Assembly: GCA_949152475.1 (NCBI GenBank)
Contig: OX424560.1
Span: 20,089,106 to 20,153,105 of the forward strand
From: Terebella lapidaria
Taxonomy: Eukaryota > Annelida > Polychaeta > Terebellida > Terebellidae
Length of the DNA: 64,000 nucleotides
Direction: 5' to 3'
The stretch's first letter is position 1. Every line of letters begins with the position of its first letter. Under the pieces are notes generated by a model. The model saw nothing but the letters and a program-made list of their open reading frames with translations, searched no databases and had not been told where the DNA came from. This document shows, in pieces, positions 23,571 to 64,000 of this stretch. Made by a program: the position numbers and the translations under genes.

Positions 23571-23575
23571 GGAGT

Positions 23576-23919: not shown

Positions 23920-26900
23920 TTTTGTTTTTATTAGTTCACCGTCGTTTTAGACGAAGAACAATGGCTCATTATCTCTGGATTTCTACTTTCTTAAGGAGAT
24001 TCCCGCTGTGAGATGTCTATTGTTAGCGTTGAGACCCCAAGTGAATGGCCTGTTTATGACAGACATTCAGCTAACGCGTTTTCCGCTTTGGTATTTGGTA
24101 TGCTGTTTAAACTCTTCGAAGCAAAGATCACTTGATCACATTCCTTCAATTGTTTATTGACAATTCACTTTTCCATTCACATGCCGGTCGGAAATCGTTA
24201 CCTTGCAGTAAAAACCCAGCGTGGATTCCACTTTCATATCAAGTTTATGTTTTACTACAAAATGTTTTTACGTATCGCACAAAACCCAGACGCCAATCAA
24301 TTGTCTTAACGATATTCAATTTGCCTGGCGCACGTTCTGAAACCTAACCCCTTTTTTATCAAGATAGATAATAGTTTTCTGGAAGAAACCCTCATGCTCC
24401 CAACCGAAAAATAATAATATGTGGATGATATCTGAAAAGCGAAATAAATTGATGTAAAAATACATGTTCTAAGATACTTTGCAGAGATACATATATGTAT
24501 GATTTTCCACGAGAGAAAGGAATATACAAGTAGGTGAAAAGAAATCATATATAAAAGAAATAAAAAAGAATAAATACTAGATGGAAAGAAATAACATGTA
24601 AAAAAATATCGCGAAATTTGATATGTGGCAATCAATATTCTACAATCACCAGAGCTCGCATAACATATATACATTGTATATCACATAGTGCAGGATATAT
24701 AAAAAATATACAGAATTCTTCTGTACCGGATCTTGATACAATTTCCAAGTACGATTATGGAGCCGACGTTTTTACATAAATAACATACGATAACATTTGC
24801 GACGAATATCGATGTTTTGATCATGATGCTCCGCCTGATCATGCAAGTTGTGTATTTTTTCGCCACATTCACAAAAAAGAGAGTTTATATTAACACGAAG
24901 AATCTTCACTTCGACCACTCTGCGTCCATGCCTGTTATTCGGCCATATCAGCGGGCTACAGATCCGCGTTTACAGGGGGTTCGACATAAATTTCCCAAAC
25001 GCTCTTCTGGATAAGTTCAATGAACGATGAAATCAGCAAGTAAGCAAGCCCGGTAGCATGACATTCCTCATGTATCCATTTTGAGTTTTTTTCATTCTAT
25101 CGATAGTGTATGTGGTGGGTCCCATAAACAAAACCAAATTATACACTCGAGTTCCGTTCGGAACTCAGACAACAAACAGATGTCTGATATATATGTTATT
25201 TTGGTGGAGATGATAATGGTATTTTCTTTTCATTATGGTGTCAGAACAAATTGTTAGTGGAAACAGTGTTTATCTAGCGGTTTCAAGCACAATATCCCAC
25301 ATAACATGGTACGCAACGTAATACTCCATGGAAATTGTTTTGGTTTTTTTGCCAATTCCAAATTGAAATATCTTGATTTTTCACGGTATATGGAGATGCA
25401 TTATGTATCTGAATGAATGGCTCTTGTGAATCTGAACTAAAATACTACTAACTTTCTTCCATTCTGATGAATAAAAATGGAACCCGTACGAAGTATAAAG
25501 TCCAGAGTCAGGGAAAATCCAAACAATTGTATGAAATTGTATGAACCTCCATATATGGCCGTAATAAAGGATGTGAAACCAGGTGTTCCGTAAAGAGTGA
25601 GCATTTCCTGTTCCACATGCGGCACCTGTCATGAATTTCAAACAAAATTAATGTACAAACCAGTCCTGCTGTGTGTTTGTCACGATGTTATATGGGATTG
25701 GTGTCGGTTGAATGAGTGGCATTTGGCACTTTGGTACCCATTCAGAGGGCTGAGTTATGACCTTTTTTTATTTCTCTCGGATCCTCAAGCAATCATCAAT
25801 ATGATATTATGCATTCGAAAACATAAACGTTGGATTGAATATTCTCTTCAATGAGGAATTATGGGTAAGTTTGGATCATTTTGTGTCATTGTTATCGAGA
25901 TAAAGTTTCAAGAATAAAACAAGATATATCGTTTCTGGAATTTCGTTCATTCATGAGCGAACTGATGTGCATCTTTCTGATCTGCAAGAATGTGGGGGTT
26001 CACAACCTCTCTGCTATATGTTGTCACGGTTGTAAAATTCTGCGAATTGGAAAAGGTTCAATTATATTAAATTCACAAATCTGAAATTTTATGGATTTTT
26101 TATTCTAAAGAAATTTGAAATGGTAAGTACGGTAAATGGGAGTATGGTAGAGAAATCTGACATGAAAAAATCCATTATATGGATTATATGGATGCTTGTG
26201 GCTAATCTGAAAGTATATGTGTTTCATCCATTATCGAACGGATATAGTATGGTATGGAATTTGATATAAAATATCCATTATAATACTGAATAATATGGAT
26301 GCATGTAGCGCGAAAGCGACCATGGTGAATCTCCATATTTTTTTCATATGGAATCATGCAAACCAATTCATTAGTGAATGAAAACAACTTTAGAAGAATA
26401 TATGAATCTTGTTTGTTTTCAAAATTGATTGGCCTGAAAATAATTACCCATTTTTTTGGTATGTATGTAAATCTAACCATACATAATGGTTGTTAAACAT
26501 GATGTTATTCGTTGGGTTTTTTTTTTCAAAGAAAAATAATGTTGAAGGTATATGAACATTTATTTGAGACAATTAAATCAGCCAAGTGGATTTCATCTCT
26601 CTCTTTCGTCATGTTCCTTGGTTGAAAGGCAAGTCTGACCAGTGATTTATATGAGGGCATACCGAGAACTGAATGAACATTTACATGTAGACTCAATGAT
26701 CTTTTTCGAACATGAAAGGCATGTTGTTAGTATATCAATATTCATAAATCAATTCATGATTCAACGCCTACACATTTACCATGGTCATTCGGGGACTCAT
26801 CTATCTGATAGGGATGTAATTGAAAAAAATAATGAGGAAGTGGGCCGTAGAGTGTGAGCACATTTATCAATCGAGAATAATGAGGAATTAGTATTATATC

Positions 26901-28800
26901 ACACATCTTTACGTTAGAAACATCTTTCACTGCAAAGAACCGCCTGGCATGCATTATCAGTATACGTTCAAGTTACTGAATTGCACACGATGAATAAATT
27001 CGCATTCTTACATTTTAGTTTTGTAGTACTTTTTGTGGTGTTGTAGTGGAATTTATGATATCAGAAAGCAGCTGTGGATCTACCATGGTGCCTACATTTA
27101 TTATATACGATAGTAGGGTTGATAGTGACTGTCATATCTTATCTCTAATAAATCATTATTATAAATATGATGTTATTTTTTATATCTAGATTAGACTCAT
27201 TTTCACATAGAGTATCGTCTTTCATTGATGAAACAATTGCCTCTGATGGATTCGGTTCCTTACATCGAACCAATTTTCATTTGGAAGTTTCAAGTTTGTA
27301 TCACACATGACATCTGAGTCATCTTGAGTGGACTGTAATGGAGACGAGATGATTCATGACCAACAGACAAAACAATGGCAGATAATGACCATAAACGTGT
27401 ACCATATGGTCTCGAGATAATTTGGATTAATTGAGTCACACATGACATTAATGGGATATGTCAACACTTAATGCACCGTTGTATAGATGGATGATGGTTC
27501 ACACATTTGGGGGTATTTGTACTCACATAAAACATTGAGATCCATTGGCTGAATCTGTTGAAAAATAATAATACGACCATCACGCCTCTGCCCAATTGAT
27601 GTAGAGCATGATTATTTGTTATCCGAATTCGCAAGAAGCAAACAACAGTGTTCAGATTAAACGGAAGGTTGAGAAACAGTTAATGGCGATCATAAGACGA
27701 TCATTCATTCAAATCCACCCTAATCATTATTGATTTTTATTAATGAATAGTACTGCTGCTCGTGATTTCATACTCATATACAATACACATACTGGTATAA
27801 TATATGCTGGTTTTAAAGTTACTGGAAGATCAATATTAGTGTATATATGTGAATATTGTAATGTGGCATGTAAATGAAACAAAAAACGTGGAAATATTCC
27901 AGTCTCCTAATATCTCCATGTTCCGTACACATGAATTGCCATGATTCATCGCTCACATTACTACTTACTACAACTTATGAAAAACAAGAATTTCTTATCA
28001 TCATAAACATCACATACCCTAACATTTTCATTCGGGAAGATTAATGGAATTGTTAACGACGTGAATTTTCGTCCATGGTTGGTGTTTTCGTGGTTGTGGG
28101 AGCTTATAATCTCTTCCATATGTGAGATGTTATGAAAGAACACACTGGTGAAACGCTAAATCCAATCATAACTTCAATAGAATAAGATTCATTCGAAGAC
28201 ATTCACAATCGTTCAATGAAATCGTACACTTTGTCATGTACGTGTTCTATATACGATAATGTAAATAATAAGAATTCTGAGCGATGAATGCAGTGCATGG
28301 TATGTTTCGGCATAATTTGTAAACACGCACATTTGCTGACTAAACAAGTCATGATTCGGACCTTGGATGGTATGAATTTATCCAGCATCAATACAGTGTT
28401 TAATTTGAAAAAAAAACGGCTATAAAGCCCCCAGCATTGCCAAAAGATACCAAGGTTACCGAGGTTCAAAAATACTTATCTGCTACAAGGCTAATTGTTG
28501 CAAAATGAGATACCAGGCCAAAGTCTGTGTATGTACATATTCCAGCAATCAATCTCGATCCTGGAAAAAAAATGTCAATGCACAAGGACAGTTTATTGAT
28601 GATTAGCATTATCTGTCAGGCAAATGTACAACTACAATCCTATGCTGAATTACAGTAGTTGAGGAATTACAGTAGTTGAGACCTACTGAGATGGATATGT
28701 TTTGCGGTGAACCTCTTTGTTAATTTTCAGATCATGTGACACTGTGTTCATTATCAAGTACACGACCATAAACTATAATAGCTTTCACATTCTCACTTAT
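23920..28800 (+). repeat. Array unit 1, old and diverged
   Basis: Segments in order: A (23920-24350, closest relative at 61160-61720), CDE (24704-25307), G (25710), K (26600-27090), L (27120-27500), M (about 27960-28150) and N (28290-28490). About 4.1 kb separates this CDE from the next. It lacks a clear H segment. No coding region was found; the open frames present are short and without motifs. Confidence 0.7.
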
Positions 28801-31390
28801 AATATCAGAGATGTCGGATAATCGGTGTAGATGCTTTTACAGAAATAACGTATATATCGATGTTCAGATCATGATGCTCCACGAGATATACGCGTTAACA
28901 AATATGTATGTCCGTTTGCTACAGTCAGAAAGAGAGATTTGATACGAATACAGAACATCCTACAATTCGACATTTGTTATGCGATAACAGCATGCTGCGA
29001 ATCCGAGTTTACAAGGGATATGGGAGAAATATTCTTCTAGAGTTCAATGAACGATGGATTAAGTAAGCAGGCAGTGCAGCGTAACATGTATCCGTTTTTT
29101 AGTTTTCTCTATTATGTGTGGTGGGCCCTATAAACAGTAGCAAATTATACTCAAATTTCGTTTGAAAATTTTCAAAACCGTTTACTGATATAATGTATAT
29201 GGTATTCTGGTAGGCATGATAATGGTATTTTATTTTCATTATGGTGCAAGAATAACTCGTTAGTGGAAACAGTGCTTGACTAGTGGTATCCAGTACAATA
29301 TATCACAAAACACTGAACAAAACGATTACGTTATGAAATATGTTTGTTTACACCGATTAATTTAATCATAAAAGTGAGCATAGATGAGATAAAACTGATT
29401 TTGATTGAAATGTATGACAGGTAATTTGAAATAAACAATGCTTGGATGAGTATTAGACAACAGCTGGATAGATCGGTGGGCCACTACGTAAGTTAAAGGT
29501 ACATGCTGTATAAATAATATTCATGGATATTATAAATAAACGAGTGGTGATTGAATGAGTGGCACTTGGCATTTTACCACCTGGGTCTGCACATGTTATA
29601 TTCATAATATCTCAACAAAAATAATGTGTTTGACAATCCACGAAAACACCGATGAGGGGTTAGGAATACACTCAATTGCATTGTGTTCTAAACACTAATT
29701 GCATGTGTCGGTCGATCAGTGCATGATTTTGATGATACCTATCGAGAACGTAACGTTAAACACATTTGGGACAGACACGAAACCCGACCAAACATTCCTG
29801 TCTGAAAATTCCTGTCTGAAGCCACATGGGCGTCGTCAGGGCAGACAGTGAATAGAAAAAAAAATTTGGCTCATCCTCAGTTAGCTGTCCTCCAATAAAG
29901 CTAGTAGTGGTGAAATAATAATGACAGTAACCTAACCTAAAAAAACAAGGAAATAAAAAACCAAAAAAAATTAAAAGTTGTGTGTAAAAACATGTAACAC
30001 AAGTTCAAGTTAATATTATAACAATAAAAATATTCAGCTGTCAATGAAATTATATCCATGTTGTATAGATATAATAATTTTTTTCAAGTCTAATTTGTTG
30101 TATTATGTGTCACTACGGATGTACTGAAATTTGCTCATTATGCACTATACAGGTCACAATAAATTGCATAAGATATAAGGTAATTCTGGTGATGTACAGA
30201 GAGGCAGTTGCGGGCCTTTCCCCATTCACCCACGTTTTGACGTAGACTGCAAGATACTTTATCAGTACGTCAATATTCGGTGCTATATTATTTCATTCCA
30301 GCACAGATACAAATTTGCAAAAATATAATGTTAGTATTCACCAAATGTAACATTGTCTATGTAAAGACATGTTTTGTCCACACAGGTCACTGGACTATTC
30401 CACGAAAGCTCGATTGTAACTGGTGGTGAAGGGGATGTTAGAGATACATGTGTGAGAGGGTTGGACATAATGAGGTTGGCGATGATGAATTATCAGCAGG
30501 TATAAAAATGACACGTAATTAGATACCCAGCATAATTTGTGTTATTAAACCACACAGCACATTAACGGTATACACCAATCTTAATGAATGGGCCTCTGTA
30601 TGTAACGATGCATCTGTATGTAACGATGCCTTTGTATGGAAGGATGTATCATCTGTCGAATATGATCCTTCCGGTGACATCAAAAACAAAATGATCTATT
30701 ATTGAGAAAATAATGACACTCACTAACAAGGTTATGTTTGTATTGTATAACCGAAAACAAATAGTTCTCGTCTTTGCATATGTATTATACTTATTTACCA
30801 TACATATATATTGCTGTCATTGATGTTTACGTGATGTTAGTTTTTTTCAATACTGCTAAAATAGCGGCAAACCACAACTTACCTGCTCGAAAACTGGTGT
30901 TCTGATATATTCTCTCATTCTCTCATGCAATTTTAACATCATATTATACACATGTAAGTCACATAATCACCACGTTGTCGATTGCGAAAGCGGGGGGCAT
31001 CAACTCTCATTGCCCTAGAGGAGTTGCAGGGTATGGAACATGTCTGAGACCACTTTCAGACTTTGAATGTTATGAAAGAACGCACCTGTACACTGATGTG
31101 CTTCACTGAATAATCCACACAACTTTCAAATGTATAGTAATATCCACTATGTTACTGCACAAAAACGTCTACAGTGGATGCGTTGGGACTAAATCAAACA
31201 CAAGCTACATGTAGCATAGGTTTTAAGTATTGTCGTTAAATTTATGAACACGTGTTCGATTCCCATCTCTGTAGCAATTCAGTCAGGTGAAGTTCACCTT
31301 TTTGCAAATCATCATGTTTTTGGTTTATTACAAGTCTGAAGGATGATCTCTATGATGACATGAAGAGTACTGGTTCTGGACTCAATCATC

Positions 31391-32350
31391 ATCTATGGGG
31401 GGGGGGGGGGAGGTTATTGCATCACGACTTGACTCATGTCTGTCTGTCTGTCTGTCTGTCTACCCGTCTGTATGTCTTCGCGCAAAACTTGAAGACAATT
31501 GTTCTGCTCAAATTGAAACTTATGGGAATGAAGTGGTATGGTAGTGGCTCAGGCCTCTTCATTTTTTTGTGAAAATCGATTGTTATGGCTACTGAAAAAG
31601 TGAAATTTACATAATTGGCTACATAATTGATCAGAACTCCGGTTCTAATCAAAATGATATTTTTTTTACAAATAGTTTTGTATTTTCCTATGGCCAATTC
31701 TTTATTCCGTCTCGAGATAGAGGGACCTTATGGAATATAGAGGAACAACAGCATAAGTCACGAAATTTCGTCTTGTGGGCCAGTTTATAATCCTTTTGAA
31801 CCATTTTCGTTCAGAAGAAGTGCCTTGATAATACGAACATTACTGTGAAGTTTCAGACTTCTATCAGAATTAAGCGATAAGTTCAAGGTTATAGAAAATA
31901 AAATTGCAATAATTGAAAAAAAAATGCAATAACTCCACTTTTATCTGTGATCACTTTTTCCTAATATTTTTGTGTTTTTCTCTTGCCAATTCGCCCATCA
32001 CTTACTATGTGACCAACGGTCGTAAGGCCAAAATTTTCTATTATCGCCCTAAGTCGAAAATATCGGGGGTCATCAGGTGAAACGACCAATTTGTAATATT
32101 TCAAGTAGTTGTAATTCATGAACACGCTGACGATAATCAAAAGAATAATGAAAATTATGTATGCAAATCTGAGAAGGCATGCTAAATTTGGGAGATCAGC
32201 AACAAGAGTTCAGGTCATCGTCGAGATTAAGATCAAAATCGCCCAAAATCGAAAATGTAAGAGTCCTCCGGGTTAACTATTGTGAGTACTAAGTAATACT
32301 TAGCGGCAATGGTTTGCAATTTTTGATTTTTGATTGTCTTGTTTTAAACA
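31391..32350 (+). mobile_element. ~0.96-kb insertion of unknown type splitting a K segment
   Basis: The K segment runs normally to '...ACTCAATCATCATC' at about 31390 and resumes at 'ATTCATAAATCAATTATCG' near 32373; other K copies lack the DNA between. The insert opens with a 14-G run (31397-31410) and a (TGTC)6 repeat (31437-31460). It contains 'GGGGTCATCAGGTGAAACGACC'-like sequence near 32066, related to a block near 4228. No terminal inverted repeats, coding frame or clear target duplication were seen, so the class is unknown. Confidence 0.55.
31437..31460 (+). repeat. (TGTC)6 microsatellite
   Basis: Six perfect TGTC units near the left end of the 0.96-kb insertion. Confidence 0.9.
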
Positions 32351-34525
32351 CGAAATATCTCTCATAGCTCTAGGTATATTCATAAATCAATTATCGTCCG
32401 TGATGATACCAAGGTCGATATTTCAGCTGTCTGCTATAGATATACTTGTAGAATAAAGAACAAGTGGACCAAAGCAAATGTACACATTTATCAATCGCAC
32501 ACAATTGTGGAGCCAGTATCATACTTCGCATCTTTCTTTCACTAACATTTGTTACTGTCAAGCATTATCAGTATAAAGTTGAAGCTTCTAAACCACACGA
32601 TATCTGAACCACTATTATATGGTAAAGCAGCTGTCGACCTGCTGTAGACAGTGCCTATATTTGTGTACTTTTAGCATGATAGTGAATGACGTCTCTGACC
32701 TCTGATGAATAGTTATTATGAATAGGTTGTTATGTTTTTTATAGCTAGACAAGACCCATTTTATTCATAATATCGTCTTGCACTGAAGAAAAAAATGTCT
32801 CCCATCAAACGAATTCTAATTTGAAGGATTGTATCTTGATATTACACAGGTTGTCTGACTCAGGCAGAGTGCACTGGGGGTGGAGAAGAGATGATTTTGA
32901 TAGAACATTGGCAGATAATGTCCATAGCAGAGTACCATACGGCGTCCAGATAAGTTGTGTTAATTGAGTCACGAATGACATTAATGATAGTTGTTAACCT
33001 TAAAGGACCGTTTTATAGATGGATTATTGTCCACATTTGACTCACATATGTCAATGGGAGTACCTCAAGAACTGAAATGATATGTTTTGGCATAATTTGG
33101 AAATAACAAGAACATATGATGACTAGTCTATGATTTGGACTCCAATTTTCTCAGCATCAAAATAATGTTCGCACTGTGAATACCAATATAAAGCCCCTAG
33201 CGTTGGGAAAGATACCAAGGTTCAGAAATGTTTGTCTACTACAAAGATAATTTTTGCAAAACGAGATACCACGCCAAAGCTTATGTACATATTTTATCAA
33301 TCAGTCAGACCGGATCATGATAACAAATACAAACACGATTAGGATGTAGCTGCTTTTACACAAATAATGTGCAAAACATTCCCGATGGGTATCGATGTTT
33401 AGGTCTTGATACTCCGCTAGGTATACACTTCATGAAAATTGGTATATTTTTTTGTTACAGTTACGAAAGGAAAGTTGATACGAACAGAACAATTCTCCAG
33501 TTCGACCACGTTGCGTCCATGCCTTTAGTTCGGCGATAACAGCACGCTACATATCATCGTTTTCATGGGATATGACAGAAATGCTTTTCTGGATAAGTTC
33601 AATGAACGATGAAGTAAGTGAGCCCTGGCAGCATAAAATTTCTCACGTGTCTATTTTTGGTTTTTTTTCTTATTATGTGCGGTGTGTCCCATCAAAAAAG
33701 CAAATTACACACTCGAGTTTCATTCAGAAAATTTCAAAACTGTTCACTGATATATATATGTTATTTTGGTAGAGATAATAATAATGCTTTCTTTTCATTA
33801 TGGTGCAAGAATAAATCTTCAGTGGAATCAATGCTTATCTTGTGATATCCAGCACAGTACCTCACAAAACACTGTTAAGAAAAGATTGCTTTATGAAATC
33901 TGATTACCGATTACTAAATTGAAGCACCTTCGTTTACAGGTTGCCTAATTTGTTTACTACAAGATGCATAGATGAGATGAATTTTTTTTGGAAAGCATAC
34001 TTGGAAGTGAATGAAAAATATTTGGATGGACCAGTGGGTGTGTATCAATGTATGTGAGCTAAACGTTGCTAAGGCATGTAAAAAATGTTCATGGCTATTA
34101 CATGAATAATGGTCAAATGTATGGCAGTAACCTGATCGAAAAACCACGCATTACATCTATGTGATACATTTTATTGATATATTGCAGAATCAAATCGATT
34201 CTTGTGAAATGAATGATAATTACTTTTGTGTTCTCAAAGTGAGAAACCGAGTGTTGGATGACTGAGTGGCACTTGATATTTTGGCACATGGGTCTGCACT
34301 TGCCATATTAATAATATCAAAACAATGATAATGTATGGGACAATCCCTGAAAACACCAAGGAGGAATACAGTCTAAATTGTATTTTGTTCCAAACGCAAA
34401 TTGCGTTTATCGATCGACCTATCACTGCCAGTGCATGATTCAAATGATATCTGTATAGAACCTAACGTCAAACACATTTGGAACAGAGACAAAGCCCCAC
34501 CAAACATTCTTGTCTGAAGCTACAC

Positions 34526-34762
34526 CACAGTCCCTTGTTACGAAAATGCCTTGGTTATTGCTGTATATTTTTCCGAAGGAAAAGTTACGAAACTCTGCGC
34601 GGCCGCTACAATGTACGATTTCATTCCGTTTGCTTTATCCGACGTTGCCGAAAATTAGCTCGGCAACGTTGGACAAGGAATATACACATTCACGTAGTTT
34701 CATAACTTCTCGTTTCTCGCCAATGAGAAACACTAGAACATTTTATGTAACAAGTGACTAAG
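34526..34762. mobile_element. 237-bp MITE with ~23-bp terminal inverted repeats
   Basis: The ends are inverted copies: CACAGTCCCTTGTTACGAAA at the left against CTTAGTCACTTGTTACATAA read inward from the right, 23-24 bases with about four mismatches and one gap. It is flanked by imperfect 8-bp direct repeats, AGCTACAC (34518-34525) and AGCCACGA (34763-34770). The matching stretch of unit 2 near 29820 has only one such site and no insert, giving an empty-site control. A central palindrome lies at about 34638-34671 (stem CCGACGTTGCCGA). Eight-base target duplications suggest a hAT-type non-autonomous element; that class call is inference. No coding frame. Confidence 0.75.
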
Positions 34763-35894
34763 AGCCACGAGAGCGTCATCAGCACCGACAGTGAATAGAA
34801 TCGAAATAATTTTGACACCCTTAACTGTATTTACATGAGGATAACAAAAAATTATATAGAAGTCCGGACTTCGCATATCCTCAGTCGGCGGCCCTCCCAT
34901 AAAGCCCCTACTGGTGAAATAGTTATGGCAGTAACTTAATTGAAAAGCAAATAAGAGGAAAAACACCGAATAGAAATGGATGAATAAGCTTTCGAAACTA
35001 ATGTGTAAACTAATGTAATATATTTGTAATTCAATGTTGTAACAATACGAATATTCAGCTGTCAATGGAATTATTATCCATGTTGTATATATGAAATGAA
35101 TTAATTCAAGTCTAATTTGTTGCTGTATTATGTTTTACTATGGATGTACTGGAATACACTCATACTATCCATTACGGGTCTACAATATATCACATAGTTG
35201 TGATAGTTGCTATTCTTGTGATATACAGGGAAGCATCTGTGGGTTATTAACCTGTAACCTACGTTTCAAAGTTCATGTACTTGGTAGGCAATTTGAAAAC
35301 GTAGAGACACTGAAAAGGTAAAACACTTCATCAGTACGTAAATTTTCTGTGCTACATGTATTTTTCATTCCCATGTAAATACAAATTTGCAAAACGATAA
35401 TATTAGCACTCAAGGATTTAACACTGCCTATGTTAAGATATGTTTTGTTCATACATGTCATTGGAGTTGAGTCACTATTTCATGATAGCTCCTGCTATCA
35501 TGTAACTGGTAACTTGGGGTTACGCTGTTGTTAGGGATACATGTGCGAGAGAGATTGACATGATGAGGTTGGCGATGATTAATTACCAGCAGGTATAAAA
35601 CCGGCACGTAATTAGAAACCTGAGTTAATTATTTTGTGTTATTAAATCACACAACACATTAACCGGATACATCAACCTTAATGAATGTATCACTATATGG
35701 AAGGATGTCGCATCTGTTGAATAATTCCCTTCAGTGACAACAATACCCAAATGGTCAGTTATTGTTATATATGTTATATAGGTATTTATTAGCGTTATAT
35801 CTGTGTAACACCGAAAACAAATAGTTCTTCTTTCTGAATAGTCATTATTCAGTGCCTTAGAATTTTCAACTTCGCAATGCCTATCTATCATTGC

Positions 35895-36515
35895 CGGGCC
35901 CCCCCCCAGGGCCGCGGCTTACTGGAGATACATTGAAAATTTACGTGGAAACTGGTATTATCGCCGGGAAGTTCGATGGGACTATTCAAACCCGTACGTT
36001 GTTTTCTTACTGCAAGTTTCAGAACTTCTACCACCATTCGATAGATGTAGACACTCTACAGGGAAACACTCATGCACGTCAAATTTTACTGTTGATCACT
36101 GGTTCAACATCTGATATGGCACTGTGATCAACATTCGATATGGGGACCCTATATCAATAATTTCACATACATACATTAAGTATTGCTTACTGTTAAATAC
36201 ACCCGTTTTAAGGCATTGATTTACTTAAATTGAAAATTTGGAATATTAATTTGTTATAGATCGATTTGGTTTATAATAATCTATATAGTTTCGATTACAG
36301 TAACTGTATCACTGATGCCAATTCATTTAACTTTCTTTGTCAATATCAATATTTATTCTGTGTAAATTATAACATGGGCTAGTGTAAAAGAGCGCACAGA
36401 CTAGACCTAGCTAGGCCTACTGTTCTCAAAATCATTTATTCGAATCAGTCACGTATCCCTTTCAACTGTGAATTATACGAATCATGGGCCCCGGTTATTC
36501 TTGATGCCTAGCATC
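35895..36515. mobile_element. ~0.6-kb insertion private to unit 3
   Basis: Unit 3 aligns with unit 2 up to about 35870 (unit 2: about 30790) and again from about 36540 (unit 2: about 30830), so roughly 620 bases are extra. The insert begins with 'GCCGGG' and a 9-C run and ends near 'GGGCCCCGG', so both ends are GC-rich. I could not establish terminal inverted repeats or a target duplication. The short open frame at its left end has no recognisable motif. Confidence 0.5.
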
Positions 36516-37082
36516 TGCGGTTTTACTTGTTATATCTTGCCGTTAACCTGATGTTATTTTTTGTCAACACTGCCACAATAGCAGCAAAATACACCATATC
36601 TCCTTGGAAAATGGTGTTCTGACAAACTGCCTCAAGAGAATGAGCTCTTTACCATATACTAACATGAAGGTCGAATGCAATATTAAAATAAGCATTGCAA
36701 GTCACTTAATCGCCACCTGTTCGATCGCGAAGACAAGGGGCAGAAACCGGCATAGTCACGGGTGAGCTACAAAACACTTGGCATGTCTACGATATCTTCC
36801 TTAGGTTGAATGATAAGGAAGAAAACACCAGCAGACGGAAATGCTTCACTGGTAAACCCCACAATTTTCAGACCAATTTCCTCAATTTCACTTCACAAAC
36901 GTCTACAGTCGATGTGCTGGGACGAAATCATCCAGAAACTGCAGAAGGTATGGTAGGTTTTCAAAGTCTTTAAATTTCTAAACGTAAAATTCGATTGCAA
37001 TCTAATCTTGGTATCAATTTAGCCAGGAGGACTCCATCTTGTTTCAAATCATCACGTGTATGCTGGAACGAAAACCTGAATC

Positions 37083-37124
37083 ATGAATAACGAATAATGA
37101 ATAATGAATAATGAATAACGAATA
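37083..37124 (+). repeat. 7-bp minisatellite (AATAATG-type, about 6 copies)
   Basis: Six near-identical heptamers, varying between GAATAAC and GAATAAT, at the left edge of a K segment. The related K copy at about 48613 has a single such unit, so the run has expanded locally. Confidence 0.85.
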
Positions 37125-51900: not shown

Positions 51901-51979
51901 TTAGCTAATTTGAATTAATAATCCTCATATATATATATAGATTTACATATATATTTACGTTTATTTACATATTGTTCTA

Positions 51980-52081
51980 CTTACATGAAATTAGTTTCAT
52001 GTCACTGTTCATGAAAGACAATTCATCTGTCTTTAATGAAGTTACTTTCAGGTCACTGTTTATGAAAGACAATTCATCCAT
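51980..52081 (+). repeat. 51-bp tandem duplication (copy 2 of the large repeat)
   Basis: Same 51-bp doubling as at 44425-44526, here with more differences between the two members. Its presence in both large copies means it is older than the large duplication. Confidence 0.8.
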
Positions 52082-52266
52082 ATCCATATGCTGATGGAAC
52101 AGTAAACTGGCTGTGCTTTGGGCTCATTCCTTTCTGCATCTGGAGAATTTCAGAACTGTAAATACGGCTATAAAGCTTTTAGTGTTGAGAAGAATATCAA
52201 GGTACCGATACGTTTATCTGCTACAAAGATAATTGTTTAGTCTCGATCGTGAAAGAGTATCTTAAA

Positions 52267-53047
52267 GGTCACTCGAACGTGACCGTGTCAATTCATGATT
52301 CACTGCATTGACACTGTTCACTGCAAATTTGTTTGGATAGACACGGAGTGCGCCCATACTGAATTGTCGGCGAATTCAATTCATCTGTTGATGCCCATAA
52401 ATGCATGTAGGTCCCGACGTTCACCCCAAAACAGTACAAACAGCAGGGCCATCTCTCCGGCAGTGACAGCTCTGCCCAGGCCCTCGACGAATGGCTGCAG
52501 CTTCTCCTCGGTCTCTGGAACTGGCTTGAGGAACTCAGGTCCAACGGCTTGTAGGCTGGTACAGAGTCCCTGGGGGTTGGGGGCCTCCGAGGACTTCGCC
52601 TCTTGTCGCTCCTGCTTGGACTATGGTTCCTCCTCGCTGTTAGGCAGGTCGTCCTCAGGGCTGTCTCGGGGCGTCCGCCTGACTGGGGGCGTCCTCTCGG
52701 GAATTCGACGGCTGGGGGCTGGTCGTCCGGCTGGCCGCAAAGCTCACAGTCTCCAGCTCGGGGGCAGGCACAGTAGACGGTTCATCCCGGGGGTCGGACA
52801 CGGGCGTGTCGTTCACCATCCTCCTCCCTCCCAGCTTCAGGGCGTTGCCGATCGCATGAGACACCTCATACCTGTCTCGGTTCGCTCTGCGGAGGAACCG
52901 CTAGGTGCGAAACTTGCACAGGTGCCGCCCCTCCTTCTGGCTGTGCTTGGTCACCATGTGTCGGTTGAAGTTGGACGCCAACAAGTGGATCTGGCAGGTG
53001 CTGCACCAACGTCGTCCTCTCTCTAGGAAAGGCTTCCTGGCAAGGAA
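52267..53047 (-). pseudogene. GC-rich broken gene fragment with a C2H2-type finger, copy 2
   Basis: The duplicate of 44711-45503, offset by 7548 bases, with about 18 substitutions in the roughly 640 bases I compared plus small length changes. The zinc-finger pattern, the Ser/Pro linker and the C-terminal block are all retained, again spread over different frames, so it is equally non-functional. Both copies were already broken when the 7.1-kb segment duplicated, since they share the same overall frame pattern. Confidence 0.6.
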
Positions 53048-56047
53048 CCGTGTCTTTTGGATGATATGATTTTGAAAGTATAATCATGATTTCATGAACA
53101 AATCTCTCGAGACATGTGTCAAAATCTTGCACCAGCTGGTAAGACACGATATGAACACAAGAGTAATCACTCAGTCACAAAAAATCAGCTATATGATAAT
53201 TCATTACATGCTAAGTTTTTATTAAACTCGTTTGTGAATTGGTATTTAATATGCTGTTGAAGTAAATCGAAGTGACAACCACTTGATCACATTCCTTCTA
53301 TAATAGCTTTTTTCTGTTTTAAATATCAATGATGTTGACTATCACACAACACCCAGACACGATATTCGTCTGGTGCAGATTTGCAGAGTTACTAACCATT
53401 TTGTAGGAAGCTAGTTATATGGAAGCCTCAAGGCTCGCAGTAAAAAGAAAACTATTTTATGGATGATAACTGAAAGGGAACAGTCCTGGTCTAAAAATGA
53501 ATGTTTTGATATCAGTTAACAAATTATGATAATTTTGTATGATACTTATGATTTTCGTTGACTCACAAACACTGTATAGACCATTAAGCATGAGATATAA
53601 AGATATGCATAAGTCTCCTGTACCGGATCTAGGTGGAAGTCTAAACACGATTATGGTGCAGATGCTTTTACATAAATAAGGTGCAAAAACAGTCACAATA
53701 GATACCATTGTGCGCTGCCAGATAATCACACACTTCGGGAACAAGTATATGTGTTCGGTAGTTAAAAACAAGAGTTGATACGAACACAAAGATCATGCAG
53801 TTCGGCTACGCTGCATTAATGCTTTTCATTCGGAGATAACAGCACTCTACATACATCCGTGTTTACAGAGGGTATGACATACATTCCTGTTATGTTTTTT
53901 TTCTGGATGAGTTCAATGAACGATAAAGTATCCGTTTTTTGTGATATTTATTATTTGTGGTGGGTCTCATAAACAAAAACAAATTATACACTCGAGTTCT
54001 GTTCTGCTATCTTCAAAACAGTTGTCTGATATATATTATTCCGGTGGAGATGATAATGGTGTTTTCTTTTCAGTGTGGTGCCAGAATAAATCGTTAGTGA
54101 AAACACTGTTGGTCTCCAGCATTAAATATTACATAACACTGGATTTACCTGGGGACTAAATGTAGACACTTAATGTATATACAAACTGGAAATATTTGTG
54201 CTTGCACCTCATATAATATATTCATAGTAGAATGCATCAATAATATGATTTTTTTTTCCGAGTAAGACGTACGCTGACATAGGCCTATACAAAGTCCATT
54301 ACATTGTATTGTGGGTGTGTACAATAAAAATCAAAGGCTATAGTTGTCATTATTGTGAAGTGCATTGAGAAAACAGCAGGTCATTGACCAATTACCCACG
54401 CTTCAGCTATTATGTACTTGCCAGAATAGGTTGAAAATGTGTAAAACATTTCATCAGCACCCGAATAATCGGTGCGAAATAATTTTTTCTATTCCAGCAC
54501 AAATACAAAAATCAAGATCCACTGGGTGAATGTGGTTAAAAGCAAATAACACCACAGTTTTGCCTTTGCGTGAAAATAACACCAGCTTGAAGTTGGATAA
54601 TGGATATTGATCGTCATTATATAGTTTCTAAATATATTTTGGAGTATAATGTTGGGCAAGCAAAATTAGTATAATTTTCAGAGCGAATGGATCAAAAACA
54701 ACTAATGTGGTCTATATTTTCACTTTCTGTCCTCATGAATGATTCAGTCCATTACCACGCAATACATATAGATCGAATGTCACTGTTCATGCAAGACAAT
54801 TCATCCATATGTGATACCCCATATGCAAGCCTTAATTTATCGTTTGTTTTGAAATAACTGGGTTGCAAAAATGTGATGAATAAACAGGCTGTGATTTACG
54901 CTCATTTAGCATCCTTGTGTTTCTGAAGAATTTCAGAACTGTAAATACCTCTATAAAGCCATTAACTTTTATCTCCTTATCTCCTACTATGATAATTGTT
55001 TAGTCTCGATCGTCAAAAAATATCGTCACATAAGGACAATTTATGGTGAATCTGTTTGCTTTCTTCGAGTATGTCTGACAATACGTATTTTTTAAAGTAC
55101 AGTGAAGTTCAAGACACCATACATGCAGCCCTAAAAACGTTTGTTCTTTCATGTATCGTGTTCGACATACATAGACGTATCTTTCTCTTTAGTTTATCAA
55201 GGAAAATAGGTAATTCATTCGATCATATTGTGCTAAAATAGTGGCAAATTAAATTGCAGTCGAATGAGGAAATCTACCGCTACAATATAAATTTGTAATA
55301 ATTTGTTAAATATCGGTCTGCGATGCACCCTTTCCAATGCTAACTCAAATACACTTATACTCGTTAACTGCACCGATATACCACGACAATATATCAGTTC
55401 TGAGTTCAGATTGAGCATTGATTGAAAATTAGATTGACGACAAATCTGATGGCATGAGAACAACCTAATCTGGACCTAATTATCATTGTTCAATATCAAG
55501 TGAATCCTAACGTTATAAACACAAACCACAAATAATGCATTGTTTGGGTCTTCTCAAGAGAAACAAATAAACAGAGACGTGAAAAGGATTCAGATATAGA
55601 AAACAAAATCAAGAAACTCGATATTTGTATCTGAGCTTCCATACCATCATGTGATAGACTTATCTACACTGTATAATCCACACATTGCATGAAATAATAT
55701 ATTATATAGAATTCGTCTGTACTGAGTCCTGAAAGCAAGTTCAAACAGGATTACAGTGTAGCTGCTTTTTCATAAATAATGTGCAAAATTATTTACAACG
55801 GATAACGATGTTGAGATTGTGATACTCCGCTAGATATACTCCTGAAAACTCGTATTCTGTTTGCTACATGTACAAAAAGAGCATTGATGGGATTACAGAG
55901 CTTGTCGGGTTCGACCACGCTATGTCCATGACTTTTATTCGGCGATACGAACGCGGTACAGATCCATGTTCACAGGGGGTATGCATTGACATAAATCTCT
56001 CAAATGGTCTTCCGGATGAGTTCAGTGAACGATGAAGTCAGCAACTA

Positions 56048-56518
56048 AGCAAGCAGGGCAACAACAAAACTCCTTTCACACCCATTTTTGTAGACCTGTA
56101 TCATATGTGGGCAAAAGCAAATTATACATTCGAAAATCTTCAAAAAGGTTGGCTGATATATATGTTATTTTGCTGGAGATGATAATCGTATTTTCTCTTC
56201 ATTTTGGTGCTAGGATAAATCGTTTAGTAGAAGCACTGTTCATCTCTAGCGGTTTCCAACACAATAACTCAGTCTCCCTGTCATTTTTGTTTTCTCTCAC
56301 TTCGTATGCCCGATATGACTTTCTATCCCCGGACTATGAGATTGGATAATGGACCCTGTTGTGTTCGCTCGGAATACTTAATACTGGGTATTGATTCACA
56401 CACGCTTTATGAAACAATATACCATACCATATACCGTGAATACTATACTAACCGTTGTCAATTATTAATGAAATATATATGTTTAAACATTTCATACCTA
56501 ATTGATTATGGAATGCGT
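56048..56518 (+). repeat. Array sequence: E segment and unmatched flank
   Basis: The E part continues to about 56265 ('GTTTCCAACACAATA'). The next 250 bases are AT-rich, without gene, and I could not match them to another unit. Confidence 0.45.
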
Positions 56519-57660
56519 ATGTAATGTAAAGTAATGTAATATTTATTTCAAAACCTGTACATGCAAGAAATACATATTTCGATACATATAAGAAATATTT
56601 GGTGCAGAAAGGCTTTGGGGATACGACAAGGTAATTCATTACCTGTAATCGTTGTACCCCGTACACATTAATTACCTATTATAACTATTGAGGAGTTACC
56701 ATGAACCAGTGATCAGTTGACGGACTACGTTAATATACTACAAATATATGTACATACAAATGTTTATATACTCAGCCATTGCGTTGCAGCATAGCTATAC
56801 TAGTGTAATTGTTACCCTACTTGCATGGGGTTATTTTTTCGTTATAATTAATGAGGAGATTGGTGTTTATTCAATACGTATTCATATAGTAGTTGCGTAT
56901 ATTACGCATAAAAATTGCCATAGATTTCGAAGTTCGTATTGATAATGGGAGAGTAAGCCACAGTTTTGGGCCTTGAAAACTAAAACATGTATACGCTCTG
57001 GCTGTATTATGTGATTCGATATGCGGATCACTTCAGTGACGGGTGTTGTGTCCATGTACACAATCATTTGCCGTGAACGTAGTGAGTAAGGGTGGTGGCA
57101 GGCTCTGGCTATGAAAACGAAACATCAATTTTCCTAGTTGAATATTGTATAGATCGGAGACCTTAGGTATATTTAATTTTTTGAATAAAAGAGTTGCGTG
57201 AGAATTGTATGGTGCCTTCATGATATTTCGAACGCACCTTTTTGCAATGTCTCTACTCTATGAAGCTTGGATTTAGTTGCAGATCCCCATAGTATTAACC
57301 CATACAGCAAATGCGGATGTACAAGTGAGAAGTATAGAAGTCGAAGGTTTTTCGAGGATAAGATATGTTTTGAAGCAGTGAGTGCATATGATCCGCTACA
57401 TATTTTGCGGCATATATAATTAATTTGTTCGTTCCAATCGAACGATTCGTCAATGTAAATTTCTAGAAACTTTGTACAGGTCACTCTGTTAATTGTTTGT
57501 GATCCTAGTCTTAGCTGTTTCATATAAGTTGTTTTATCTTTCGACATTTTGTTCTGAAATATAACAAAGTTAGTTTTCTGTACGTTAAGCGATAATTCAT
57601 TTGCAGCAAACCATTCAGCAAATGTGATACGACATTTGTTTGGTTTAAGGTTCAAAAAAG
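56519..57660 (-). mobile_element. 5'-truncated LINE of the CR1/jockey group
   Basis: Only the 3' part of a non-LTR retrotransposon, inserted on the minus strand in the array. The RT C-terminus is followed by a 3' UTR, an AATAAA signal (56542-56547 on the minus strand) and a short ATTAC-type repeat tail at about 56519-56541. Array sequence resumes at about 57690 with a K segment. It is a different lineage from the LINE at the left end of the window. 5' truncation is usual for these elements. Confidence 0.8.
56871..57655 (-). pseudogene. LINE reverse transcriptase, C-terminal fragment
   Basis: Family blocks in order: 'WFAANELSLNVQKTNFVIF' near 57600, 'YIDESFDWNEQINYICRKI' near 57430, 'LRLLYFSLVHPHLLYGL' near 57310, 'YNSHATLLFKKLNIPK' near 57190, 'YNIQLGKLMFRFHSQ', then 'HGHNTRH' and, in another frame, 'SFQGPKLWLTLPLSIR', ending at a TGA at 56871-56873. 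At least two frame changes break it. The palm domain with the YADD motif and the endonuclease are absent because of the 5' truncation. Confidence 0.85.
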
Positions 57661-57689: not shown

Positions 57690-59680
57690 GGGTAAATCAT
57701 CGTGTTTCTTGGATGAGCGAAATCAAGGCTGAATGATGATTTATATGGGGACATGGAGACTAACTGAACCTAGACTGAAATATCATTTTCATACATGAAA
57801 GGCATCTCAGCGCTGTAAATTGATCCATAATTCATAAATCAATTATCTTCCATAAAGATACCAAGGTTGGTAATTCATCTTTCTGCTACGGAGATAAGTC
57901 GGAGTGTATTTTATCAATCATGTATAATTGTGTAATTCATATGTATTGAATTAGCATATATATTAACCTATTACCGCCAGTAACAGAAGATTTTGGTGAT
58001 TTTGATGGAGATAGTCCTCAAAATGTTTTTATTCAAAACACGCATGTCACCAGACAGTGTGTAAATTTAAATGTTTCTTCTGCACACGTCATGGAATTAG
58101 TATACCACTACCTAACAGCCGATTGAACAATCTCCATTATTACAAATTCGGTGCTATTTTATATAATATTCAGAAGAAGTCTCGTTTAATAGCGGATATC
58201 ATCCAACACTGTTGATACCTTTGTCCATGAATTCGGTTCATTAGCTGGTACTAATTCGATTGAGATAGTATCCTGCATATTACATAGGGCGTTTATTTTA
58301 CAGGGAATTAACTGGGGGTAGAAATATGATTCATAATACCAGACGGAAAGTTGATTATAATAACCATAACAGAATACCAACTGGTCTCAAGATAGTCCGA
58401 CCACAAGTTGCAATGGTGAGAATTTGTGTTTTGTTAAAATGAACAATTAAGATACAAATTAGACAGGGGTCATAGGTCGATAGAGCATTGAAATAAAATG
58501 ATACAAATCAAGGAAAATACTTAGATGCAATAAGAATGCCATTGTATTTTGCACTGATAAACATACTGGGAAAACATTGGTGTATTATGTCATGTGCATG
58601 AACAAACTGAGCGATGCGAATACCAGTTCTTGTGCTATTTGCACGTTTTGTCCACGTGATTGAACATCACTCATTATTCACGATGTCATATACTACACTC
58701 TACATAGAAATCATCATAAACATCACGTGCTATTACATTCTCATTTATTTGGCCAGGCAGATTGATGGAAATGTTAACGACCTGAATTATCATCCATGGA
58801 TGGTTTATTCACGTGTATGTGGGAGCCTTATATCCTCCTCTATATTTCAGATGTTATGGTAGAACGCACCTGTGCACTGCCAACGTCCATTCATGGGTTC
58901 GATAGAATACTTCACGGTTGGCAGTAGGTGTTTCAATATGTCCTAAATAATCAGAATTCATTAAGATGTTAAGATGTTGACTTCAAAGTAAATGTTTCCA
59001 ATCCAAATTAATACTCATCGATGTACTCATTTATTTCACTGTAATTATTTCCATGTCATTGTTCAAGCAAAATGATTCATATACAATGTGTACGTATTTT
59101 TCACTATACACATAATTGAATTCTTATATGCATGTATGTTCGGCATAACGAGCTATGATTTCAACTCAGTTAAATCTCGGCAGCATCTAAAGACTTTCAG
59201 AACTGTAAGTATCTATGCAAAATCGTTGGTGTTGAAAAAAAGACAGAAAGTCTGCCAATTTTATGACAAAACGATATACCAGGTCAAAGCTCATCTACAT
59301 CCTTTATCAACGAGCTTTGACCATGGAAAGAATATCATACCATGAAGAGTTTATATAAACATTGATATGAGAAGGCAATGCAGTGACATTCCTAATACTC
59401 CACTACAGCCGTTAAAAGCGATACTTGATGAGAAACGTATTGTCGTGAACATGTCTAATTAGAGTTTATTTTTTTCCTGACGATTGTTTATATGTATTTC
59501 ATCAAAACAATAAAAATGGACACACCTTATACTCAGCTGCGACAAATAAAATTATATAGCAAAATATTCCGATATAAGTGTAGATTTGGCAAACATATCA
59601 CATATCGAATAAATGGTGTAAAATTTGTGTAATTTCAACCTTGTATGAATTCAGCCAAGCAAATTTTTTTTCTAAACCTT
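57690..59680 (+). repeat. Array unit with K-L-M-N
   Basis: K (57700-57960), L (58150-58420), M (58560-58950), N (59130-59340) and the segment also found at 39050-39200. It lacks CDE and G. It is much diverged from the 42-56 kb copies and closer to units 1 and 3 in order. No gene seen. Confidence 0.65.
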
Positions 59681-62460
59681 CATGTTTCTTGGTTGAGCGA
59701 AAGCAAGTCGGAACAATGATTAATATGAGGACATGAAGAGTACTGACCCCAGACTCAATTATCATTTTCAAACATGAACGGCATCTCAGTGCTGTACATA
59801 CATTATATCCATAATTCATAAATCAATCATCGTTCATAAAAATAGCGAGATCGATAACTTATCTTTCTGCAACGGAGATAAGCGGAAGTTGGCCAAGCGT
59901 GTGAGCATATTTTATCAATCATGTATAATTGTGGAACCAGTACCACATTACCTGACTTTATATTAGAAACATTTGTTCCTGAAAACAACCATATGATATG
60001 ATATCAGTATATGTTCAGGCTTCGGGAATTTGTACGAAACCGCTCATGGATAAATCAATTCTGTAGTGCATATACTATTTTTGGTATCAAGAAGGCAGCT
60101 GTAGAAACATAGTTGAATACGAGTAGCTACAAGTTTGATCATGAACGTTATATTCGATGCCTAATATATCATCGTTACATATCCGATATTAAGTTACTTA
60201 GTAAGCATACGTCTTAAATGATCCAATATCTTACAACAATATCACTTGACCGCCCATGGATGTTGCTCATTAACTGGACCACATTGCTACTGAAACTTTG
60301 ATTCATACAAGGAATGAACAGGGTAAAGAAAGTCAGAAACACAGACAGAAAGGGAAACTCCGAAAAAGGGAAAGAAAGAAAATAAAAGTTGATAGATAAT
60401 GACATAACAGTGTATCATATGGACTCCAGATAATTTGTATTATTATATGGCATTGATGGAATATATCAAGCTTATTGCACTGCTGTTTACATATATAGTT
60501 GTCCTCATTCGCCAAATAATACCCACCACAAGAAATGAAGGTGGGGTCAATCAGGAAAGTGCAACTAACATCACATTGACACATCGACCTGGTGTGTGCG
60601 CACCATGACAGTTCTGCCAACGACAAACATCTCTGTGCTTTATTTGAATGAACAATTAAACTTATGTACGGTAAATGCTTAGGACCTCTCCCAATTTCAA
60701 GTGTTATGGAATGAATCAGTGCACTGATGAGATTCAGTTTTGTGCAAATATGCATTATCTACTCCATCTGTACCAAAATCTACATGTGATTCCTAATATT
60801 CGCGAGATGAGATTCAATTTGTGAATAGGGAACGTTGAGCTCGTAGTGAATGTTTCAGATCTTTCAGTGTTGTATTCGAGTTTTTTGTGATTGATTAGAC
60901 GGGCTGCGGACATACGTTTAAACGTCGAAAACCATTTATTGCTATACATTTTCCGCAGTCCTTTTCCTTAATGAACACAATAAATTCACTAACAATCCCA
61001 TACATATAGTCATAATTATATTTATTTCCCCATTTATGATTTCATTGACACAAAAGAGAAATGACACCAGTTGATATTTATCATGTATATTTTTCATATC
61101 GAAAGGTGATAACGTTTCTAAACAAGATTAACGATAACCCTAGTGATTCTGTCCTGTAGCGATATTTGCTTGTTTAGTTATGATTCCATGAATGGACCTG
61201 ACTAGAGATGTGTTAAAAAAATGGCTGTCAGTCTAAGCATGACCTCAAGAGAACGTGATTGAACAGACGAATAAAACACAGTCAAGTTACTATGGAAACA
61301 TGTGTTTTCATTAGATCTCCCTTGATTTATTATGGAAGACTGGGTCGTTATCACTGAATATCTTACTCTTAAAGAGATTGTCACTGTGAGAGGCTTATTG
61401 TTATCATCACGATCCCAACTGAATGCCAGTTTTTGACAGACATTGAACAAACAAGTGTTTATTCGCGTTGTTATTCAGTATGCTGTTTATGTTCTTCGAA
61501 GTAAGAACAACACTTGATCTTAGAATTGTTTATTGACAATTCCCTTTATTTTATTCACATTCTGGTCGGAAATCGTTACCACTTTCAAATAGCCCAACGT
61601 GAGTTTACTTTAATATGAAGTTTATGTCCTTACCAAACAAAAAGTTTTCGCATACCACACAAGCCTCAGAGAGGAATGAATTGTTTTGAAGATGCCTGTT
61701 GCAAATTCTAAAAGCTTTTACTTGTTACCAGACCTGTTATCGGACCTATCGGTACATACTCCCTTAGCTTTTCGTCCATTTTCCGTCTGTCAGTCTTTGT
61801 CCACATTTTACTTCAAGTCTACAGATCCTTTGTGACAATTTGGAATAAAAATCTGAATAAAAATCAAGAGGTATTCTTTATTTTATGAAATTCTCCAAAT
61901 GGCCTTTCCAAAAATGCCCAATTTTAGACTTCAGATGAATCTATTTGCACGGTCACTCAGGATTATGTAGTACTTACAATTCGTACGATATCAATAATGC
62001 AGCTGTAAATATGCTACACACGTTAGCTTTTCGTGCACTTGAACAGTTAAAGTGGAATAATCGGTTTTTGGTTTTCTGGTTGAATTGATCAACAGCTGTC
62101 CCCAGAGCAGCTGTATAGTGCAAAAGTTCCAATGCGAACACGAACTTGTCTAAATTTGACATTGAAAATCGGATTTCAAAAATAGTTTTGCACGGACCGG
62201 TTCCCATGCAGTGATGCAAAATTTGATGCAAAATTTAAAAAAATAGCTGACAATATAGGAAAATACGCACCCCTATCACTTGAAAAAGTATATGTATGGT
62301 ATATTATAGTGATGCAACCCCAAATATTCAGTTTGATTCTTTTGCGTTGCACATAAAGAGAATATATAGGGAAATTCATGTCTTTGTTTATGTTAGCGCA
62401 GATGTTTCGGTATCTTCAAACTCCACTGTATGGTCATCCGGACGTATTTTGGGGGTTGTA
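59681..62460 (+). repeat. Array unit with K, partial L and A
   Basis: K at 59685-60100 matches 57700-57960 well. A reduced L lies near 60380-60490. A lies at about 61160-61720 and matches 23920-24350, including 'AATTGTTTATTGACAATTC' and 'GGTCGGAAATCGTTACC'. The stretch 61720-62460 has no match that I can see and no gene. Confidence 0.6.
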
Positions 62461-62462
62461 AC

Positions 62463-62770
62463 GGTGTTATATCAGCTATTCTAACATGGTGACGTCACAG
62501 CGCTCTTAGCATTTCAGTCATTTCAAAAGGTGTTATATCAGTTGATATACGGCCCAAGGGCCTATACCAGATTCACGTTTCCAGGAGCAACGGCGTACAG
62601 AAACATCACGACCGCAACAAACACATGTAGCCATGGTAATGTTTGTTTGCTCACAATCATTCACCATTTGTCGTAATTGTCTGCGATAAATTTCTCGGGA
62701 CAGGTGATATAGCCCTCGACGCCTTCGGCGTCTCGGGACCATATCACCTTGCCCTCGAAGTTTATTGTGC
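62463..62770. mobile_element. Cluster of palindromes, MITE-like
   Basis: GGTGTTATATCAG occurs at 62463 and again at 62529. A palindrome with a GGCCC/GGGCC stem lies at 62546-62566. A long imperfect palindrome at 62702-62749 pairs AGGTGATAT with ATATCACCT around a GACGCC-TTC-GGCGTC core. Together with its higher GC content this suggests a small non-autonomous element; no flanking target duplication was identified. Confidence 0.45.
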
Positions 62771-62849
62771 GACAATTACTCCAAATCTATACATTATTCC
62801 TTAAATATATGCTAACCAATTGATTGATAACGAATTCCAGAAACCGATT

Positions 62850-64000
62850 ATTCCACTTATAGTGCATTATAGTGCATTTTATCATCGTGTTTCATGCTTG
62901 ATAACTCATCATCTTTTTTGTGCTGTCGACACAATTGTCTGAGGATTCAGTTCATTACCTCGAACAATTTTATATGAAATTTCATACCAGGATCAAATAG
63001 TTCGTCTGCTTTCAGGAGTAGATGATTCATAACAACCAGACATAAAGTTGACAGATAATGACCATGGCAGCATTTATTTGATAATATTTATCAATTAAAT
63101 CACATATGTCATTAATGGACTATATCAACCTTAATGCACCGTTGTATGTCAGCTGATGGTCCACGTTTGGCAAAGACTGACACCAACCGCACAGAGTGTG
63201 AAGCTATTGGGAAAATCTGGGTAAAATGGTATTTCACATTGTCGCCTCTTAATACGGAATAAAACACTATAATTACAAATTGTTGAATGGACAATGGCCA
63301 TCGTCATGTATATATTTTCCAATACCCGGTATATTTTGAAATATTTCACTGAATAATCAACACACAGTATCACACACACGAGGGATAGCACAAAAACAAC
63401 TTGTGTTCTTGTTATTTCCACGTTCTGCCCACATGAATTTGTACATTGAATTATTCACATTATATATGCTATAAGCTACCTGGAGACTGGAATGCCTTAT
63501 CATCATAAACACCACGTGCCATAATATTCTCATTTATTTGGTGGGGAAAGTTTATGGAAATGCTAACGACGTGGATTATCGTCCATGGATGGTTTATCTA
63601 CGTGTACCTGGGAAGCCTACAACATCTTCAATATTTCAGATGTCATGGAAGAAAGCACCTGTGCACTGTCAACATGAAATGATGTGATCGATAGAACAAT
63701 TCACCGTTTTGATGCATTGATATACTCTGATTAATCTGGAATCAGACAGAGTATGCATACTTTTTTTTTCGTATATGGTTTCAAAGTGTGTAATTAAAAA
63801 GTCAATGGAATAAATACACAAGCACATATATGGAAAGATATCTTCATGTACATAATTAGCATTTGTGCCACATTTTACGGGCATAATGGAATCTACATGT
63901 ACATATATGCAATACTAGTTATTCGTTTTTATCCATAATGACATACAACCAATAGATCATAAGATCAGATGACAGTGAGAGTATATCATATTCATATAAT
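62850..64000 (+). repeat. Last array unit, cut by the window edge
   Basis: L (about 62900-63200) and M (63430-63720) in the usual order; the sequence continues as AT-rich array to the end of the window. The true right boundary of the array is not in view. Confidence 0.6.

Follow-up and report, generated by a model that had tools for sequence, protein, structure and literature searches.

In higher-order satellite repeats, diverged monomers become fixed into a composite unit, and this unit is then amplified. Human arrays with units of more than 2 kb, including DXZ4 and arrays whose units carry transposable elements, have been described as locus-specific megasatellites or macrosatellites; they form highly visible repeating patterns and are mostly variable in copy number (PMC2588610). 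Here, we analysed 64,000 nucleotides of the annelid Terebella lapidaria (assembly GCA_949152475.1, contig OX424560.1, hereafter C6; C6:20089106-20153105), a stretch that we call the window, in which a first-pass annotation had noted a non-coding tandem array of ~4-5 kb units. The array is ~45.5 kb long and runs from 23,920 to ~69,400 in window numbering, ~5.4 kb beyond the window's right end. The expectation that it leaves the window was correct, but the suggestion that it may be far longer was not, as it ends at ~69.4 kb. Judging from its sequence, we consider it probable that the array is an old, locus-specific, layered, and poorly homogenised megasatellite, made by unequal crossing-over and now passive and ageing.

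Order, layers, and confinement of the array

Besides the 64-kb window, we examined 80 kb of the right and 20 kb of the left flank. A BLAST comparison of the window with itself (low-complexity filter off, E<=1e-10) returned 77 pairs, 76 direct and one inverted; the latter (40450-40606 / 40989-40823) corresponds to the terminal inverted repeats of an element resembling a miniature inverted-repeat transposable element (MITE) that was inserted here. When the array alone was compared with the filter on, 114 pairs were direct and none was inverted, and the direct pairs cover 32,949 of the 45,481 array bases (72%). Profiles of ten segment classes, searched over 164 kb at E<=1e-3, gave 91 matches, every one of them on the plus strand and within 23,921-69,428; many of these are copies used in building the profiles, so that the information lies in their strand and order and in the lack of any match across the other 118 kb. 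Both approaches confirm the direct, one-orientation repetition in largely conserved order that the first-pass annotation had described, and self-comparison of the window plus its right-hand neighbour yields ordered direct repeats rather than scattered, unordered matches. Tandem units of more than 1 kb lie head to tail, and short-period tandem repeats were looked for and are not what the array consists of. The array and its parts are as follows:

23920-64000, plus strand: array within the window, running on to ~69,400 in the right flank
23921-24506, plus strand: segment Y, leftmost copy and left edge of the array (profile search)
41216-41722, 45509-46018, 48908-49104, 53051-53559, 61300-61716, plus strand: further matches of segment Y (profile search)
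24663-25306, plus strand: segment C, first of nine copies (profile search)
28823-29315, 33293-33874, 41723-42284, 46019-46610, plus strand: segment C, copies two to five (profile search)
48201-48588 (truncated), 49105-49686, 53560-54141, 55657-56271, plus strand: segment C, copies six to nine (profile search)
26573-28292, plus strand: module U, comprising F1 and F2 (1480-position model; profile search)
37016-38793, 57693-59142, 59648-60745, 65321-67471 (two matches), plus strand: other long copies of module U
28295-28765, plus strand: segment G, with 14 matches in all, 11 of them long
28295, 33080, 38788, 43224, 44489, 47294, 50740, 52031, 54814, 59146, 67345, plus strand: starts of the long G matches
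29538-31392 and again 34245-37039, plus strand: segments H1-H2-H3 (profile search)
41524-48588, repeated at 48908-56044, plus strand: duplicated block, 88.8% identity over the alignment

The segments follow the cyclic order Y, C, H1-H2-H3 (or the related H2p), F1, F2, G, and X, before Y or C is reached again, with many deletions. Segment C is the CDE segment of which at least nine copies had been claimed, a number borne out by its nine matches, one of them truncated. Successive C starts lie 4160, 4470, 8430, 4296, 2182, 904, 4455, and 2097 bp apart. The proposed unit of ~4-5 kb holds as one layer but not as a clean unit, given the C spacing of 904-8430 bp and a module of ~1.5 kb beneath it; this module looks to underlie the composite units, and the 4-5 kb unit would be a composite of diverged modules. 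Partial copies of module U occur elsewhere in the array: 30491-31118, within H1-H2-H3, matches U positions 703-1320, and the U profile also matches some G and X copies with its beginning and part of H2-H3 with its end, several of them weakly. Some long G copies resemble the start of U, again weakly. At E<=1, the same profile gave two weak matches outside the array, at 69972-70050 (9e-4) and 95260-95340 (0.01).

The array holds copies of different age. Older copies are ~60-75% identical, many of them differing at one third of their letters, and the recent block reaches 89%; the high similarity between units that is typical of megasatellites, without defining them, was not found. Along the ~7-kb block, identity steps from ~90% to ~97% near 44.5 kb and back to ~90% near 47.5 kb, with single 150-bp windows ranging from 76 to 99%, and the 97% middle patch suggests that a second exchange may have taken place there. 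Trees of C, G, and F2 recovered seven of the eight sister pairs expected from the block duplication. Six of these are starred (C 46.0/53.6, C 48.2/55.7, G 47.3/54.8, G 44.5/52.0, F2 42.8/50.3, and F2 44.1/51.6), G 43.2/50.7 is supported at 93/90, and the tree leaves C 41.7/49.1 without resolution.

Copies were sought throughout the genome (761.6 Mb, 438 contigs) with a search that skips very common words. A C query of 1420 bp and an F-G query of 2029 bp each had 11 of 11 matches inside the array, with all ten first-look candidates scored for the former and all eight for the latter. C and F-G are restricted to this locus, which is what the first-pass annotation had expected of a megasatellite. 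The single-locus statement is weaker for H (best 40 of 150 candidates scored) and for a Y-holding query (best 40 of 5323), and X was searched only together with other segments.

According to genome searches, five stretches of the array are inserted dispersed elements, one of which was copied along with the block. Their copy counts are lower bounds, as the best ~40 candidates were scored, and no strand is assigned to them:

25497-25684: short dispersed element, with copies on many contigs
~40442-40997: MITE-like element with inverted ends of ~170 bp and copies on many contigs
~44896-45506: dispersed element of ~0.6 kb, with a copy near 52.4-53.05 kb, inside the duplicated block
56519-57621: dispersed element of 1.1 kb, with several copies at 96-97% on other contigs
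62045-62858: dispersed elements, adjoining or nested (genome search)

Both open reading frames (ORFs) of at least 150 amino acids in the array overlap copies of the ~0.6-kb element (44896-45506 and ~52.4-53.05 kb). Older copies of the 1.1-kb element (83-85%) are located at C6 20.37-20.57 Mb, 0.2-0.4 Mb away, while many others are at 96-97%. In addition, 56271-56397 was found twice more in the right flank at 94-95% identity, ~125 bp at 29726-29850 resemble, at 70-78%, the members of a dispersed family, and two sequences elsewhere match 29875-29947 at 81-82%. The ratio of observed to expected CpG (0.83 in the array, 0.89 to the left, and 0.74 to the right) is uninformative.

Coding potential and possible origin

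We found no coding signal in the array. Codon-substitution scores from 300 pairwise alignments, in which every pair appears in both directions, average 0.01 and peak in every frame and strand; 67 of 69,262 windows score above 5, compared to 63 of 69,165 in the reversed control, with maxima of 7.4 and 6.9, respectively. Simulated families of nine copies each (mean identity 66.6-74.1%) served for calibration. Neutral families reached maxima of 5.8-6.8 (three runs, smaller than the array data), whereas exons of 40-120 codons evolving at a ratio of nonsynonymous to synonymous substitution rates (dN/dS) of 0.2 reached 8.0-11.9 (nine runs; 8.0-10.9 in the three runs with 40 codons), and 120-codon exons at dN/dS 0.5 reached 8.1-9.7 (three runs). 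The best peak of the array, on the minus strand at 33732-33821, scores above the neutral and below the coding simulations, and the array has more windows than either. Indels are mostly short, 1490 of 3516 being 1 nt and 647 being 2 nt long (each alignment in both directions).

Searching Pfam with all six frames of 25.7-70 kb returned nothing better than E 0.035, and the weak values obtained (0.035-0.41 and 0.14-0.28) were taken as chance. When ORFs of at least 30 amino acids were searched back on the array, the matches listed lay on both strands and tracked the DNA repeats. The tRNA search gave no match, and Rfam gave none at the gathering threshold and none at E<=5 over 23,900-64,000. By codon scores, Pfam, and Rfam, the unit contains no gene, within the reach of coding tests that would miss exons under ~30 codons and fully decayed genes. 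The earlier statement that no coding frame is conserved is upheld by scores at the level of the reversed control, by higher scores for simulated exons, and by the empty Pfam result.

How might such an array have formed? A module of ~1.5 kb without coding signal would have been tandemly duplicated at one chromosomal place, and diverged neighbours (of the F1-F2 type and the G-C-H type) would then have come to alternate as composite units, before a block of ~7 kb was duplicated later. The engine would most likely be unequal crossing-over or replication slippage between direct repeats, as we infer from the repeats being direct and ordered, the duplicated block, and the steps in identity; occasional gene conversion might account for the 97% patch. 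Homogenisation would have been too slow, so that older copies drifted to ~60-75% identity and acquired small indels and transposons. The array can be explained without any function, and it may well lack one.

Alternative explanations and the neighbourhood

Several observations weigh against a passive, ageing megasatellite. The codon peak of 7.4 exceeds both the reversed maximum of 6.9 and the neutral maxima of 5.8-6.8, and it coincides with the less-diverged right half of C. Of 28 pairs, which are not independent, 26 show less divergence in this half than in the left one, and two do not (33.2/55.5 at 1.05 and the close pair 41.6/49.0 at 1.19); eight further pairs, all involving the truncated copy, were left aside. 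Strong single hairpins occur in 0.66% of windows in the array and in 0.31% in the right flank, a difference of about twofold. Finally, other arrays lie alongside, suggesting some local factor favouring arrays that the megasatellite reading does not name.

These features bear on another reading, in which the locus would produce a long noncoding RNA (lncRNA) or act as a chromatin anchor with local repeats, comparable to Firre and DXZ4, and the units, for instance in the right half of C, would hold blocks that bind RNA or proteins. Repeats confined to the locus, with other DNA between them, fit the definition of local repeats in PMC4820808, and the divergence pattern of C would also fit. The left half of C is richer in indels, though, and its divergence may be inflated for this reason; across the recent block, the right half is, on the whole, no better preserved than the left (0.918 and 0.973 vs 0.938 and 0.958, respectively). 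We regard the lower divergence as a weak hint of constraint or conversion. Mean folding energy is -13.8 in the array and -13.7 in the right flank, and the excess of hairpins is explained in part by inserted elements: 11 of the 25 listed hairpins sit in inserted or dispersed elements, including six of the best seven. Two hairpins outside such elements occupy matching places in two C copies, and the corresponding stretch of the left half of C was folded for each of the nine copies, with shuffled sequences as a control. The hairpin folds better than shuffles in the copies at 28.7 kb (z -3.4 to -3.8) and 33.2 kb (z -2.2 to -2.7), which would favour an RNA function, and is marginal at 24.5 kb (z -1.8 to -1.9), but the remaining six copies do not retain it (z -1.3 to 1.4), and the consensus at this place has an energy of 0. 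Consensus folds from RNAalifold are weak as well, with -7.4 kcal/mol and double changes at 2 of 27 pairs for the C core, and -3.65 and 1 of 8 pairs for F2; neither these nor the hairpin comparison across nine C copies revealed a fold common to all copies. Taken together, we consider an lncRNA or chromatin-anchor locus unlikely, albeit the most credible single-locus alternative to a megasatellite. The repeated non-coding transcription unit that the first-pass annotation had listed among its options could still apply, although Rfam gave no match and no common fold emerged.

The neighbourhood of the array looks unusual. We compared direct matches more than 500 bp apart with those in three 40-kb samples on contigs C1, C9, and C3 (120 kb): such matches cover 25,919 of 40,000 bases in the window (20,001-60,000), compared to 8310, 3263, and 2443 bases, respectively, and the longest matches in the C1 and C9 samples come from short-period tandem repeats, as seen from the regular shift of match starts. 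Another array of direct repeats, with spacings of ~5-6 kb among others and 60-88% identity, occupies -19.4 to -2.2 kb. A different one begins at ~70.4 kb, just past the end of the present array, and extends to 104.6 kb, with one 2-kb pair at 88%; all 15 genome matches of its unit fall at C6:20.16-20.26 Mb, and three, at 149.5-166.5 kb, are inverted. Small sets of two or three direct copies follow at 113-119 kb (offset ~3.3 kb), parts of which have inverted relatives at 133-144 kb, and at 123.5-130.5 kb (~3.6 kb). None of the other arrays seen is as long as the present one, and the profile search at E<=1e-3 found none of its segments in the neighbouring arrays. The region from ~-19 kb to beyond 166 kb could be one neighbourhood in which several arrays without a detected common segment were born side by side, as part of a chromatin-organising or lncRNA domain or of a hotspot of tandem duplication; at present, we hold this wider view to be a minor possibility.

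Codon scores were also obtained for three neighbour arrays. Maxima were 5.3 vs 4.8 reversed at -20 to -1 kb, 6.5 vs 5.3 at 70-105 kb (42 vs 6 windows above 5), and 4.8 vs 3.3 at 123.5-131 kb (20 vs 0 windows above 4, from six alignments only). None of the three gives a strong coding signal, but coding pieces may be present at 70-105 and 123.5-131 kb.

Further features lie close to these arrays. Two tandem copies of a 139-bp unit, 99% alike, are found at 23575-23847 and end 73 bp before the array starts. A rhodopsin-type receptor gene with a single open frame, possibly aminergic by its look, occupies 19235-20536 on the minus strand, 3.4 kb to the left of the array (Pfam 7tm_1, E 3.7e-62). At 116-2989, a retrotransposon-like stretch with several overlapping frames contains a Pfam endonuclease domain and, by its look, a reverse transcriptase, and has few genome copies above 90%. 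Two minisatellite blocks with a ~50-bp shift and opposite orientation lie at 120.6-123.4 kb.

The array could also be a cluster of genes in tandem that have decayed or have tiny exons, with introns and spacers forming the repeated part. Unit length and single orientation are those of tandem gene clusters, and the 7tm_1 receptor gene is near, though outside the repeat. However, codon scores remain at control level, while simulated exons of 40 codons reach 8.0-10.9; the best Pfam match over all six frames of 25.7-70 kb has an E of 0.035; and conserved open frames under selection were not found in the codon-score tests with simulated controls. We consider a gene cluster improbable. The nested remains of one very large non-autonomous mobile element, an option raised by the first-pass annotation, might explain why many dispersed elements were taken up by the array, but the C and F-G queries have no dispersed copy in the genome, all copies share one orientation, and no common ends were noticed, although no formal test for them was made; this option is very improbable. 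An assembly artefact of unmerged haplotypes or repeat mis-joins, for which the 7-kb pair at 89% (97% in the middle) could in principle be haplotypes in tandem, is hardly credible: the older copies are ~60-75% alike, far past the usual allelic difference.

Comparison with known repeat systems

Among described systems, locus-specific, non-genic megasatellites provide the closest fit. The present array matches them in the size and tandem order of its units and in the transposons it contains, but it lacks their regularity, and we regard it as an aged one. Like the human megasatellites of PMC2588610, it has a tandem unit of more than 1 kb, no genes, and transposons inside some units, and it presumably expanded via unequal crossing over; unlike the regular ones among them, it is largely 60-75% alike, irregular, layered, and placed beside other arrays. 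We noticed no comparable invertebrate array among the papers listed by our literature searches, which is not proof of absence. The adjoining arrays make the clustering of such arrays a testable question through sister species.

The array also shares features with the local repeats of Firre-type lncRNAs (PMC4820808): its repeats are confined to one locus, as the definition demands on the sequence side, and other DNA separates the copies. In contrast to those repeats, its copies stand in tandem order and make up 72% of the array. If it were transcribed, the array would parallel local-repeat lncRNA loci in an invertebrate.

With higher-order satellite repeats, the array would share the fixation of diverged modules into a composite unit that is subsequently amplified. 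It differs from them in that its module measures ~1.5 kb rather than being nucleosome-sized, there are only about ten units, and no link to a centromere is shown. We believe that an old single-locus array with readable layers, comprising a 1.5-kb module, a composite unit, and a 7-kb block, could allow higher-order growth to be ordered step by step.

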